From Siphonodentalium dalli (taxonomy: Eukaryota; Mollusca; Scaphopoda; Gadilida; Siphonodentaliidae): a DNA stretch of 64,000 nt. The DNA is taken from assembly GCA_032622095.1 (NCBI GenBank), contig CP136069.1, positions 4,202,976-4,266,975 on the forward strand, written 5' to 3'. The notes under the pieces are model-generated. The model did not search any database. It was given only the letters and a program-made list of their open reading frames with translations, and was not told the DNA's origin. A program made the translations under genes and the position numbers. Positions 3,119 through 32,093 of this stretch are shown here, piece after piece (position 1 is the stretch's first letter; each line of letters begins with the position of its first letter).

Positions 3119-3341
3119 TCATGGTGGGCACGCGTGATTTTGTAAACAAATCGTTGAGAGAAGCCGAGAGAATGCGTCTACTGGCCGGAACTGTTTTTGG
3201 TCCTCGGCACAGCGCGTACAGAATGGTGACGTCCCGAGGAGCTTGTATCGTCTGGCGCCCGGGCAGTTGAGTTCGTCGCACACGTGGTTCCTCAACTCTT
3301 CCGCTCTCATCTCTGCGGTCGTCTGGCGCTTCCACTTCGTT
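3119..3341 (-). CDS. BarH-like homeobox gene, exon 3 (end of homeodomain, C-terminus, stop)
   Basis: The acceptor TATTTCTTTCAG precedes position 3341. The first A completes the AG|A arginine codon begun in exon 2, restoring RRTKWKRQT, the exact continuation expected for a BarH-type helix 3. The exon then encodes 66 residues of C-terminal tail (residues 125-190) with TAEMRAEELRNH after the homeodomain, a cluster of cysteines (CDELNC, FCTRC) and the last residues NHACPP, ending in TGA at 3121-3119. I recognise no domain in the tail. The tail's DNA has been tandemly copied downstream (2640-3118). The exact homeodomain continuation and the phase match are the evidence that this is the real terminal exon. 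Confidence 0.88.
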
Positions 3342-4344
3342 CTGAAAGAAATACAAGAAAACCAATGTCAGAAATGGTAACGCGCTCAAGATCATATATT
3401 ATATACCCATGATTGTAATTATAGAATATAAAATATATTGATTTCACGAATGACCAACTCAGAATTCCGTTAAAATAACAATAACAACCAGCACCTAATT
3501 AACGAACCGGCGGCCGACTCCGCCCTCTCCGGCCGACTCCGCCCTCTCCGACCACAACCCCCAGTGGGCTGGAGAACGAAAAAAGTCTATAAAAGTTGAA
3601 ATATAAGACTTACAAATTATCTTTTTCATTTCTTTTATTTTATCACAATCCAAAAATCAACATTATTGACGACAATAAACAATAAACGACAATAAACAAT
3701 AAATTGAAATTCCCAACTACATCTTTTACCAGACTCGGCCTCCTGCTCGCAGTTCGACTTTTAATCATCCCAAAATTTCCCATTCTATAAATAAAACGCC
3801 CATGTTAATGTCAGCGCCCACATCTATCGAGAATCTGGAGAACCGTATACACGCGGCGCGCGTTAACAAACTTACCATGAACAGGGACGTGGCTAGGGAG
3901 TCTCCGTGGGGGGGGGGGTGTTTTCCAAATTTTCCAACTGCACTGATCATCTTGTTGACTAAAATGTCTACTCAATTTTGTTTTAAATCAAAATGTTTAA
4001 ATATTAGAACTCTTGTGTTTGAATTGCCGTGCGAGATGCGACAATGTCGTACACGTGCGTTTAGACATTTGTGTATGATAAAATAATTGGAGAACCAAAT
4101 CACACCGTTTCGAAATAAATATAGTTCTTCGGTTTTAGTGGGACTTTTCAAACTTAAGGTTCAAAATTTATACAATTTTTTTTCGATATTGTGTGTGCGT
4201 AACAAGGATAGCATGTTGCTGTATTCGCTTAGTATGTATCTCAATATCGCGGAAGTCCACCAAATGTGGGTGAAATGTCGCCGATAGCAGCGGTCTTACC
4301 GAGTCATCAAGGGAGGTAAACCCTGCATAGAGTTTGACACTGAC
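3342..4344 (-). other. intron 2 of the homeobox gene
   Basis: A 1,003-bp intron. It contains a small tandem repeat of CGGCCGACTCCGCCCTCTC near 3510-3550, a 9-bp G run near 3910 and short ORFs without recognisable content. A ~105-bp segment near its 3' end (about 3355-3460) has a second copy in the same orientation at about 35236-35335. No other gene is seen here. Confidence 0.75.
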
Positions 4345-4603
4345 CTTCTGTTCTGATACCATGTCTTCACTTGAGTTTCAGACAGGTTTAATCGTCTGGC
4401 CACATCTCTGCGATCCGCTACGCTCAAATATTTCTGACATCTGAATTTCCGCTCAAGGAACTGAAGCTGTGCGTGCGTGAAGGCTGTTCTCTTTCTCCGG
4501 ATCTTTCTGTCTTTAGCCGCAAGATATGCAGGTAACGTCTGTGGACAGCTTCCACCGAATGCGTAGTGCGGGGGAGATAACTCGAATTGAGAACTGGTTA
4601 TTT
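4345..4603 (-). CDS. BarH-like homeobox gene, exon 2 (most of the homeodomain)
   Basis: Encodes residues 31-117. A short linker ([20 protein letters not shown]) leads into the homeodomain: [17 protein letters not shown] (R5, F8, L16), then [13 protein letters not shown] (F20, Y25, R31), then [14 protein letters not shown] (W48, Y49, Q50, N51, R53). W48, N51 and R53 are the invariant core, and Q50 is usual for ANTP-class proteins. The donor AG|GTCAGT at 4345/4344 splits the codon of residue 53, so the intron cuts helix 3. The acceptor ATATTTGCAG just before 4603 gives a phase-1 entry that matches exon 1. The frame stays open upstream of the acceptor, so a longer exon cannot be ruled out, but the phase match to exon 1 supports this boundary. 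Confidence 0.9.
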
Positions 4604-4917
4604 CTGCAAATATATATGGTGACACTCCACAGTTTATACAGGGATTGCAGCAGAAATAATTAATAGGGCATCAATTCATTAAACATTAACTGAAATAATA
4701 TAAAGTTATTAGCACGCCAGCGTGTATACTGTTCTTGAAAATATAAAATCCACTGGTGTTATGGGGGATTAGGTAGATGTAAAAGTAAAAATGGGTCGCT
4801 CTAAAAGCTGTAGTCTTACCCCGAATGCTCAATAAAATAGTCCAACACAGATTAGCACATGTGCTGATATTGATAATAGCCACACCGTTTGGAAAGCATG
4901 CGATCGTGTCGTAATCA

Positions 4918-5300
4918 AAGATGGATTTCGACGAAATTTGATACTTAGGGGTACTTTTGTCCGGGGAGTGTTTTGGACGGGTCAAATCGTGACCCGACCT
5001 GACCTTGACCTTTAAAACAGTCAATTCAAGGTCAAATCGGGTAAAACGGACGGATTTCGACGAAATTTTATACCTAGGGGTAGTTTTGTCCGGGAAGTGT
5101 TTTTGACGGGTCAAATCGTGACCCCGACCTGACATTGACCTTCAAAATTGTCAATTCAAGGTCAAATCGGATAAAACGGACGGATTTAGACGAAATTTTA
5201 TGCCTAGGGGTACTTTTCTCCGGGTAGTGTTTTGGACGGGTCAAATCATGACCCCGACCTGACCTTGACTTTTAAAATAGTCAATTCAAGGTCAAATCGC
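4918..5300. repeat. three tandem ~130-bp units with nuclear-receptor-like half sites
   Basis: The phrase GGATTTCGACGAAATTT recurs near 4922, 5051 and (with one change) 5181, giving a period of about 130 bp. Each unit ends in TCAATTCAAGGTCAAATCG. TCAAGGTCA, the extended half-site of the FTZ-F1/SF-1/ERR type of nuclear receptor, lies at 5026-5034, 5156-5164 and 5286-5294. Its reverse complement TGACCTTGA lies at 5000-5008 and 5260-5268. The array is in intron 1, 0.3-0.7 kb upstream of exon 2 in the gene's orientation. Regulatory use is only a possibility. Confidence 0.75.
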
Positions 5301-5813
5301 GCCTTTCGCCGGAAAGGAGATGGGGAAACAGCCTGGACGAAGTCGGGCCCACCAGCTAGTGTAATAAAAAGCGAGACAGCTTAGTTGAAGAATGTCATGT
5401 ATAACACGATAAACGGGAAAACTTGATATAATTATGGAAGTATCCAAATTTCCCACATGGAATTTGAAAGCTAGTTTATATTATAATTATATTATAATTT
5501 ATATTTATGGCTAATAATATGATCTTGGTGGCCTTACCATTTCTGTCTATGGTTTTCTTGTTATACAATGTTGGGTACAGTATGTGTTTTCTTGTATACT
5601 GCGGATGAGTACAAGAAAACACATACTGTACACAGCATTGTATAATTACATTTTTATTATCCATCTGTATGTTTATCAAAATTTTGGGAATAAAACAATA
5701 AACAAACATTTGACAACCATACCTATTTGTAAGAAAAAATTAATACTTATTTTTCAAACTAAACAAATGTCGTGTCAACGTATATATAGGCGCGCAGATG
5801 TAAGAATGATAAA

Positions 5814-6065
5814 CAAGCCTTGAAATGGGGTGTCTGTCATTTGCAGAATGAGGTCCCCAGAGGGTTAATTAGTGATGCTACCCCGCATAGCGGGCTAGCA
5901 TCACCGAATTCACCCGCTGTGAACCTCATTCTGCTGAGGTGTAAGCAGAATGAGGCCCACAGAGGGTGAATTTTGTGGTGATAGCCCGCTATGCGGGGTA
6001 GCATCACTAAATTCACCCTCTGGGACCTCATTCTGCAAATGACAGACACCCTATTTCAAGGCTTG
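5814..6065. mobile_element. palindrome-ended TIR element (CAAGCCT family), copy 1, with 9-bp target duplication
   Basis: The element starts CAAGCCTTGAAAT and ends with its reverse complement ATTTCAAGGCTTG. The direct repeat AATGATAAA flanks it at 5805-5813 and 6066-6074. Each half is itself an inverted repeat built from TTTGCAGAATGAGGTCCCC...GTGATGCTA and a GCCCGCTATGCGGGC-like hairpin. About 252 bp and non-coding. Long inverted repeats with 8-9 bp duplications suggest a Mutator- or hAT-type element mobilised in trans; the superfamily is inferred. Confidence 0.85.
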
Positions 6066-30862: not shown

Positions 30863-31196
30863 ACCCAAGCAGACGACAGTAATCAGTGCATTGTTATCTC
30901 TGTCTGGGGCCCCATAAAGGGTTAATTTCTATATCACTGAAATAAGCAAACTATATACAAGTGTTCAAAGATGGTTTATATCCTATGGGCCACAATATAT
31001 TACAACAACATCATTTTTATAAATCCCGATTTCAAGACTACAATTTTTTTTATTTTGTTAATTAAATAAAGATAAAACTAAGATTGGGTATTTGATTTGT
31101 CTACAAAGGTATACCAAAGCGGTGTGGGATTTATATTTGAGACGTGATCGGCAGAGCATTATTCGACATTGAGAGGAACGTCGAAACATACAACTC

Positions 31197-31643
31197 TTAA
31201 AGGATCACTTAATTTTCGAACCCCAGATTACATTATATAAAAAATACATGTATGCCATATTATACCATTTGAAACATTGTATTATCAACTTATCCGGTGT
31301 AATAAACTGAGGACTGTTGAGTTGCCAACGTGTTTTAAAAAGCAGTTTTATTTTCAAAGCAGGGGGAACAACCCTAATTTATCCTGTATATTAAGGATAG
31401 AGGTCTTCTCCTTCCATTGAAAAAGTTTGAATTCTGTTGCATTCTGGGATCCAAGGGGGGGGGGGGGGGTCATTCTATAATTTCAGCAGTTTTCTATTTC
31501 TCTGTGGGCATCTTCTGAAACACAGATGTTTCAAATAGTGATGAATTATAGTATTTTAATCATATTTCATGGCATCGATTGTTATTAAAACCGTATATCA
31601 AGTCACTATAAAAAAAATAATCGAAAAATAAGTGGGCATTTAA
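31197..31643. mobile_element. short TIR element (AAAGGCCCACTTAATTTTCGA family), copy 3, inverse orientation
   Basis: Ends TTAAAGGATCACTTAATTTTC and ATAAGTGGGCATTTAA. The interior matches copy 2 in reverse (CCGTATATCAAGTCACTATA, TTCTGAAACACAGATGTTTC). It lacks the tandem expansion of copy 2. It contains a G run at about 31456-31469. Confidence 0.85.
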
Positions 31644-31669
31644 AGACATATTATGTACTTGTTCGGGTG

Positions 31670-31985
31670 TGTGTTAGCATTCAGGTGCTATGTCAACTGG
31701 AGGAATGTAGCATTTTAGTAACATCGCCGAAAATTCAAGCAAATCGACCGCATCACTCCATAGAAATCATCGTCTGAACTACCCTCAATTGTAAATATTT
31801 ACTTCTTATTCGGGACGCAACTGTCAGCGATAAACTAACGAAAACGATTTCACCATCGAGAATCACTGCAATTATTAAACATGTGCGTTGCCAATTTGGA
31901 TATAATATTTGTGAATATAACTACTTTGAGCAAGGTTATCCTCCATTTCTATTTGATCACCGGAGTGTTTCACATCACTTTAAAT
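31670..31985. repeat. right arm of the inverted duplication, beside exon 1
   Basis: Reverse-complement relative of parts of 28553-29590. It ends about 18 bp inside intron 1 from the exon 1 donor, so what was duplicated is the first ~330 bp of intron 1 rather than coding sequence. The arms are separated by about 2.1 kb of other elements. Confidence 0.75.
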
Positions 31986-32002
31986 TTTAAACTTTATCTC
32001 AC

Positions 32003-32093
32003 CTTGATGCCGATCGTAATCCACGCGCGGCGTATCGTCTGCGTCGCCTTCCAAATCGAGGATATCTCGCATCATAAACGTCCGTTTGGACAT
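32003..32093 (-). CDS. BarH-like homeobox gene, exon 1 (start, eh1 motif)
   Basis: ATG at 32093-32091 opens MSKRTFMMRDILDLEG..., 30 codons plus one base, ending at the strong donor CAAG|GTGAGAT (32003/32002). FMMRDIL at residues 6-12 fits the eh1 pattern F-x-[IVM]-x-x-[IL]-L, which NK- and Bar-type homeodomain proteins carry near the N-terminus and which binds Groucho/TLE co-repressors. The phase-1 end joins exactly to exon 2 (G|AA). The frame is open further upstream, with an in-frame ATG at 32175-32177, so the start is chosen because the eh1 motif normally sits very close to the N-terminus. The transcription start and promoter were not identified. Confidence 0.78.

Follow-up and report, generated by a model that had tools for sequence, protein, structure and literature searches.

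Introns that harbor long tandem arrays have been described in several systems, and the array considered here is of this documented kind, although striking in its size and place. In human ABCA7 an intronic variable number tandem repeat (VNTR) has a length that is reported to correlate with expression and splicing (PMC5954066, PMC6857246), and the Drosophila Y genes kl-3 and kl-5 are described as transcribed genes with gigantic satellite-filled introns (PMC6508621). Dispersed satellite repeats are reported to be enriched in introns in Tribolium (PMC5844308), and arrays arising from parts of DNA elements are described for TIR-220 of the Tetris element in Drosophila virilis (PMC4079207) and for Helitron-linked satellite DNAs of oyster (PMC11136912). 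Here we describe a 40 bp tandem array of ~311 copies located in the first intron of a predicted Bar-related homeobox gene of the scaphopod Siphonodentalium dalli, within a window of 64,000 bp (assembly GCA_032622095.1, contig CP136069.1, positions 4,202,976 to 4,266,975). Among the matches listed in a search of the open-licence literature, no title concerns a single-locus multi-kilobase array in a homeobox intron.

A 40 bp array confined to one locus of the assembly

The array (Table 1) extends over 12,433 bp, or 45% of intron 1, with Tandem Repeats Finder reporting 310.9 copies of 40 bp with 95% matches; two further segmentations gave 311 and 310 copies, and 96 copies correspond exactly to the consensus. 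Consecutive copies start 40 bp apart in 302 of 309 intervals, with four intervals of 39 bp, two of 41 bp, and one of 80 bp. No foreign insert was seen in the array, and no reverse-strand copy was found within two mismatches. The initial annotation described nearly half of the intron as one uninterrupted 40 bp satellite, and the extent and continuity of the array are as it described, whereas the term satellite is not appropriate.

We searched the 2.23 Gb assembly with the monomer, permitting up to two mismatches, and with a pattern spanning the junction between units, permitting up to three. The monomer gave 298 forward matches, none in the reverse orientation, and none in a backward-read control, and all 298 are in the window; likewise, each of the 309 junction matches in the genome is in the window. 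The same type of search does recover a dispersed family, as the unit of an array at 55269–56581 gave 419 matches genome-wide (146 + 273), with eight in the window. The confinement of all 298 monomer and all 309 junction matches to this one place runs counter to the initial view of the array as a heterochromatin-type satellite, as copies at a second locus are lacking from the assembled genome within two and three mismatches, respectively. The array is instead a single-locus minisatellite in the assembled genome, with a short unit and variant units arranged in tandem as in VNTRs, and is unusually large for a local repeat. These searches cover assembled DNA and units within two to three mismatches, and arrays outside that range are possible.

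Table 1. Coordinates of the predicted gene, the arrays and the mobile-element segments in the window.
Feature	Coordinates	Strand	Description
Coding exon 1	32003–32093	-	91 nt; 30 codons + 1 nt; eh1-like FMMRDIL; donor GTGAG
Intron 1	4604–32002	-	27,399 bp; phase 1; 52% tandem repeats
Exon 2	4345–4603	-	259 nt; homeodomain up to R53; phase-2 intron placed as in the S. dalli BarH gene
Exon 3	3119–3341	-	223 nt including stop; end of homeodomain (TKWKRQ) and C-terminus; stop at 3119
40 bp array	16029–28461	+	~311 copies; consensus GATGTAAAACATTCAATGTTGGGGTGACTATTTCATTCAT
Element B, left remnant	15943–16063	+	Runs into first array unit; matches dispersed copies
Last (partial) unit and element B, right remnant	28427–28538	+	28498–28538 is a terminal inverted repeat elsewhere
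48 bp array adjoining the 40 bp array	15431–15927	+	Expanded unit of element A; single in element A copy L041
Element A copy, 3' part	15081–15946	+	Contains the 48 bp array
Second element A copy, 5' part	28555–29612	+	Split by ~700 bp insert (28673–29372)
Third element A copy	31194–31984	-	Starts near base 19 of intron 1
168 bp repeat (2.7 copies)	2762–3223	+	Overlaps last 105 coding nt (3119–3223) of exon 3

Origin and growth of the array

Each flank of the array corresponds to one side of the same dispersed element, which has terminal inverted repeats and which we refer to as element B. A query composed of the left flank and three units (15925–16149) matches at least 39 places elsewhere at 75–89% identity, a lower bound as 39 of 47 candidates were scored. 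Most of these matches (33 of 39) span the greater part of the first unit and six stop at or before its start, but none reach the second unit. At L031–L035 the flanks are adjacent except for one unit that separates them, and a further copy, L036, is rearranged at this position. In L032–L036 the unit is recognizable at 3–7 mismatches of 35, the next best place having at least 14 mismatches of 35, and the ends of these copies are inverted repeats with 33–43 identical positions among 43–53 aligned; the distance from the unit to the end of the cut piece is ~73–90 bp in four of them and 327 bp in the fifth. The array unit contains five bases, TTCAT, beyond the 35 bp in common with element B, and inspection by eye shows the same five bases just upstream of the element's unit; the first duplication could have made use of this match.

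The unit and both flanks of the array thus match a dispersed element that itself carries the unit, and because the flanks are the two sides of element B and the examined copies have a single unit, the array is most simply accounted for by expansion on site. We conclude that it probably grew at this location from a subterminal piece of element B. Long, homogeneous arrays do resemble satellites, but it is exceedingly improbable that this one is a member of a genome-wide satellite family that landed in intron 1, given that every monomer and junction match in the assembly is at this locus and that the examined element B copies elsewhere contain one unit. The Tetris TIR-220 and oyster Helitron satellite DNAs are similar in that longer arrays arise from a unit within a dispersed DNA element; these elements are described as already carrying tandem units, with arrays that are scattered (PMC4079207, PMC11136912), whereas element B has one unit in the examined copies elsewhere and a single expanded site was found.

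The copies within the array have a mean pairwise identity of 0.957, which declines little with distance, with values of 0.957–0.961 at lags of 1–10 copies and 0.951 in the farthest class, and there are 41 distinct sequences among 310 copies. A run of 34 copies that includes 11 variants recurs identically at a lag of 36 copies, and other recurring runs are 10–13 copies long; the longest recurring run in 200 shuffles of the copy order is six. Such recurrence is characteristic of unequal exchange or block duplication. Intron 1, the first coding intron, is long and filled with mobile elements. We envisage that the element B at this site, whose examined copies elsewhere contain a single 40 bp subterminal unit, would have gained a first tandem duplication of the unit, and that slippage and unequal exchange, in part by duplicating blocks of dozens of units, would then have raised the number to ~311. 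The flanks, the unit, and the block duplications are directly visible, and from these we infer the mechanism of growth. The array seems to be at its birthplace, where one can still read the founder unit, the parent element on both sides, and the duplicated blocks, and such a reading is hard for satellites that have spread over many loci.

The recurring blocks predict length alleles, and it is likely that array length varies between individuals, for which the block duplications provide indirect support. The initial annotation proposed that the array is tolerated, affects expression, or varies in length, and because of the internal block duplications variation in length is the likeliest of these to be seen. 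Long homogeneous arrays are difficult to assemble, and a recurring block of 34 identical copies is the type of structure for which this matters, but we consider it very unlikely that the length of the array or the adjacency of its two sides is an artefact of assembly. There is no N in the window, and the two flanks match different parts of one dispersed element, which fits sides that belong together; the true copy number may nonetheless differ from that assembled.

The homeobox gene and probable transcription through the array

The initial annotation predicted a three-exon gene, and the prediction stands: the minus-strand exons join in phase to encode 190 residues with an eh1 motif and a homeodomain, and are bordered by GT-AG splice sites (donors GTGAG and GTCAG, acceptors TTTGCAG and TTTCAG). 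The distance of ~27.4 kb that it noted between the eh1 exon and the homeodomain exon likewise agrees with a predicted intron 1 of 27,399 bp. The homeodomain (PF00046) is at residues 66–122, with an E value of 1.3e-21. The best solved relatives are chains of BARHL2, which occupy the seven best Protein Data Bank (PDB) rows with a top score of 80.7 bits, and the homeodomain is identical to BARHL2 at 41 of 58 residues and to the BarH gene of the same genome (L020) at 40 of 58. Identity is lower to other loci of the genome, with 37 of 58 for L026, 36 of 58 for L025, and 35 of 58 for each of L027, L028, L029, and L030; we take L025 and L026 to be NK1-like. Over the 52 residues typed, 34 are shared with L021 and 33 with L023. 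A genome-wide search returned 61 homeodomain places, and among the best candidates, which were the ones scored, this gene has 105.8 bits and the second best 69.7 bits, such that there is no close paralogue among those scored.

Two features of gene structure, both assigned by eye, are shared with the S. dalli BarH gene: the homeodomain is interrupted by a phase-2 intron in codon R53, and the acceptor preceding the homeodomain exon is in phase 1. The homeodomain also includes WYQNRRTKWKRQ, common to the Bar families, and is of the NK-linked, Bar-related type. In the S. dalli BarH gene the homeodomain is followed by the tail LELLAEAGNYAA, which we take to define BarH proper, whereas this gene lacks it and has TTAEMRAEELRNHVCDEL following TKWKRQ. 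The predicted gene is thus a Bar-related homeobox gene, and it probably belongs to the Bari family, which is presumably the closest Bar-related family, and to the fly member of which, CG11085, we assume a close resemblance. Relatives outside of the S. dalli genome were looked for among viral contigs (44 pattern stretches) and prokaryote genome contigs (591), and none were confirmed; three peptide strings (two from the homeodomain in the window and one that we take to be from CG11085) had no match in literature text. Bari is described as CG11085 in the fly, and the onychophoran Bari as expressed in restricted brain domains (PMC6466738). The likeness of the predicted gene to the Bari and BarH families (PMC6466738, and the BARHL2 PDB chains) lies in the WYQNRRTKWKRQ homeodomain; the position and phase of the R53 intron are shared with the S. 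dalli BarH gene.

Two near-identical pairs of BarH-like homeodomain exons are present on contig C9, L021/L024 at 120.55–120.60 Mb and L022/L023 at 121.58–121.63 Mb. The pairs are ~1.03 Mb apart, one copy has a V to C substitution in helix 3, and they represent either a segmental duplication or an unmerged haplotype.

The open frame of exon 2, followed from the upstream stop, has no methionine, and a coding exon upstream of it is therefore required. Exon 1 has an ATG followed by FMMRDIL and then a phase-1 GTGAG donor. We searched for this combination (ATG, eh1, and phase-1 GTRAG donor) in 4604–16028 and 28462–64000 and in 200 simulated sequences. The strict eh1 pattern gave one match on the minus strand, which is exon 1, none on the plus strand, and none in the 200 simulations; a middle pattern gave one, none, and 10 of 200, and the loosest two, one, and 52 of 200, respectively. 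The combination of ATG, strict eh1, and phase-1 donor in exon 1 is thus more than expected by chance. The translation start at 32093 is uncertain, as there is another in-frame methionine upstream.

Any transcript that begins at exon 1 has to pass through ~310 copies of the repeat, as the initial annotation had reasoned, and the gene model and the position of the array bear this out. RNA polymerase starting upstream of exon 1 would copy the array, and splicing would remove it together with intron 1; we consider it most likely that transcription runs through the array and that the array is removed by splicing and tolerated. On the sense strand the array and the rest of intron 1 have 0 and 17 AATAAA hexamers, 0 and 2 GTRAGT donors, 0 and 51 pyrimidine tracts followed by AG, and 37 and 7 ATTAAA hexamers, respectively, although the counts in the array are close to a single draw and have little weight because one unit is repeated. 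The kl-3 and kl-5 genes are similar in having long tandem arrays in their introns, but their introns are described as holding simple satellites that run to megabases, on a Y chromosome rich in repeats, and as needing particular RNA-binding proteins (PMC6508621), whereas the S. dalli array is 12.4 kb of a local unit for which we infer transcription. Taken as a whole, the explanation that a Bar-related gene acquired an array born from element B, which grew to ~311 copies and is spliced out and tolerated, is one in which we have considerable confidence.

Several points weigh against this explanation. The 37 ATTAAA hexamers on the sense strand of the array are possible poly(A) signals, although AATAAA is absent, and their excess is the sole feature of the array that could hinder read-through. 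The left-flank search may miss arrays, since the window's own locus is absent from its list, and other expanded copies of element B with a more divergent unit are possible. Transcription, splicing across the array, and variation in length are all predicted from one assembly. In addition, seven ATGs with frames of at least 10 codons and a phase-1 donor are present between the array and exon 2, such that the gene may have its first exon on the exon 2 side of the array.

These ATGs are pertinent to the alternative that exon 1 is not part of the gene, or that the main transcript comes from an internal promoter lying downstream of the array, which would make the array intergenic or upstream. The joining of the three exons is predicted from the DNA sequence, and the eh1 exon has no second copy for comparison, with no paralogue in the genome at E ≤ 10 other than a weak match on contig C5 (E 7.9). 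Nor was an eh1 exon found by the strict motif in ~25 kb upstream of the S. dalli BarH homeodomain exon, although it might lie further off or differ. But the strict eh1, ATG, and phase-1 donor combination is unique in the part searched and absent from all 200 simulations, and the phase-1 acceptor preceding the homeodomain exon is also seen in BarH; we therefore regard this alternative as unlikely.

ABCA7 provides the precedent (PMC5954066) for a further alternative, in which the array is a functional VNTR and its length would alter expression or splicing of the homeobox gene. Both are short-unit intronic arrays with variant units, the ABCA7 unit being 25 bp and the array reaching ~10 kb as described (PMC5954066, PMC6857246), and block duplications in the S. 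dalli array predict length alleles. They differ in unit, gene, and origin, the S. dalli array being probably derived from a mobile element; moreover, for ABCA7 the length, splicing, and disease association are reported as measured, whereas the present array is described from its sequence. A distance of 3.5 kb separates the array from exon 1 and one of 11.4 kb from exon 2, nothing tested showed an effect, and we think such a role unlikely, as we do a gene without exon 1. The tolerance of the array thus remains our preferred reading, and comparison across individuals at this locus offers a direct test of a developmental gene's tolerance for a local 12 kb intronic array.

Surrounding repeats and other features

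Six arrays around the gene were tested, of which four are single-locus and two recur elsewhere. In addition to the 40 bp array, the single-locus arrays are a 23 bp array ~6.2 to 1.4 kb before the window (all 183 matches local, using a dimer with three mismatches), a 29 bp array that begins ~1.4 kb ahead of the window and reaches 2.3 kb into it (all 55 local, two mismatches), and a 48 bp array at 57386–59238 (all 33 local, three mismatches). The lack of a close match elsewhere for four of the six suggests that this neighborhood breeds arrays. Tandem repeats account for 52% of intron 1 and 38% of the window, a share that drops to 23% when the 40 bp array is left out; in the 10 kb preceding the window they make up 67%, compared with 0–11% near other homeobox exons (13 non-random 10 kb stretches, two of which nearly duplicate two others). 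The locus is 4.2 Mb from the start of a 215 Mb contig. A bolder proposal, which we regard as a long shot, is that this segment keeps giving birth to private arrays and that the intronic array, as it grows, tunes the homeobox gene like a heritable dial set by its length; if so, longer alleles would delay or lower the homeobox transcript or shift its splicing.

Three copies of a second dispersed element, element A, are present in intron 1 (Table 1), and its 48 bp unit has 201 matches in the genome at many places, some of them in arrays. Matches near the starts or ends of contigs include those at 1.5, 3.0, 4.2, and 6.2 Mb of C9 and at 210.7 Mb of the 211.8 Mb C7. The ~700 bp insert that splits the second element A copy has inverted ends (28672–28731 and 29374–29312, 82.5%), and where it interrupts the copy, alignments to L039, L040, and L041 show an overlap of 4 bp, which is what a target-site duplication of this length would produce.

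The 168 bp repeat that overlaps the end of exon 3 was considered as evidence of a C-terminus supplied by a mobile element, but this was dropped as the genome search returned this place alone. The single location indicates that the end of the gene and its 3' region appear to be locally duplicated, and the next copy of the repeat has a stop in the frame matching exon 3.

The window contains nothing from Rfam at gathering thresholds and nothing from a tRNA scan. An open frame at 11051–11629 on the minus strand has weak matches to retroviral-type aspartyl proteases (best E 4.4e-4, below the cut-off) and is likely a retroelement remnant inside intron 1. A second minus-strand open frame, at 50553–50951, encodes 132 residues that match Cadherin weakly (E 3.5e-5, below the curated cut-off) and ends in ISVSDYPY, a tail that we take to be hemicentin/fibulin-like; it is possibly the last exon of a neighboring gene.

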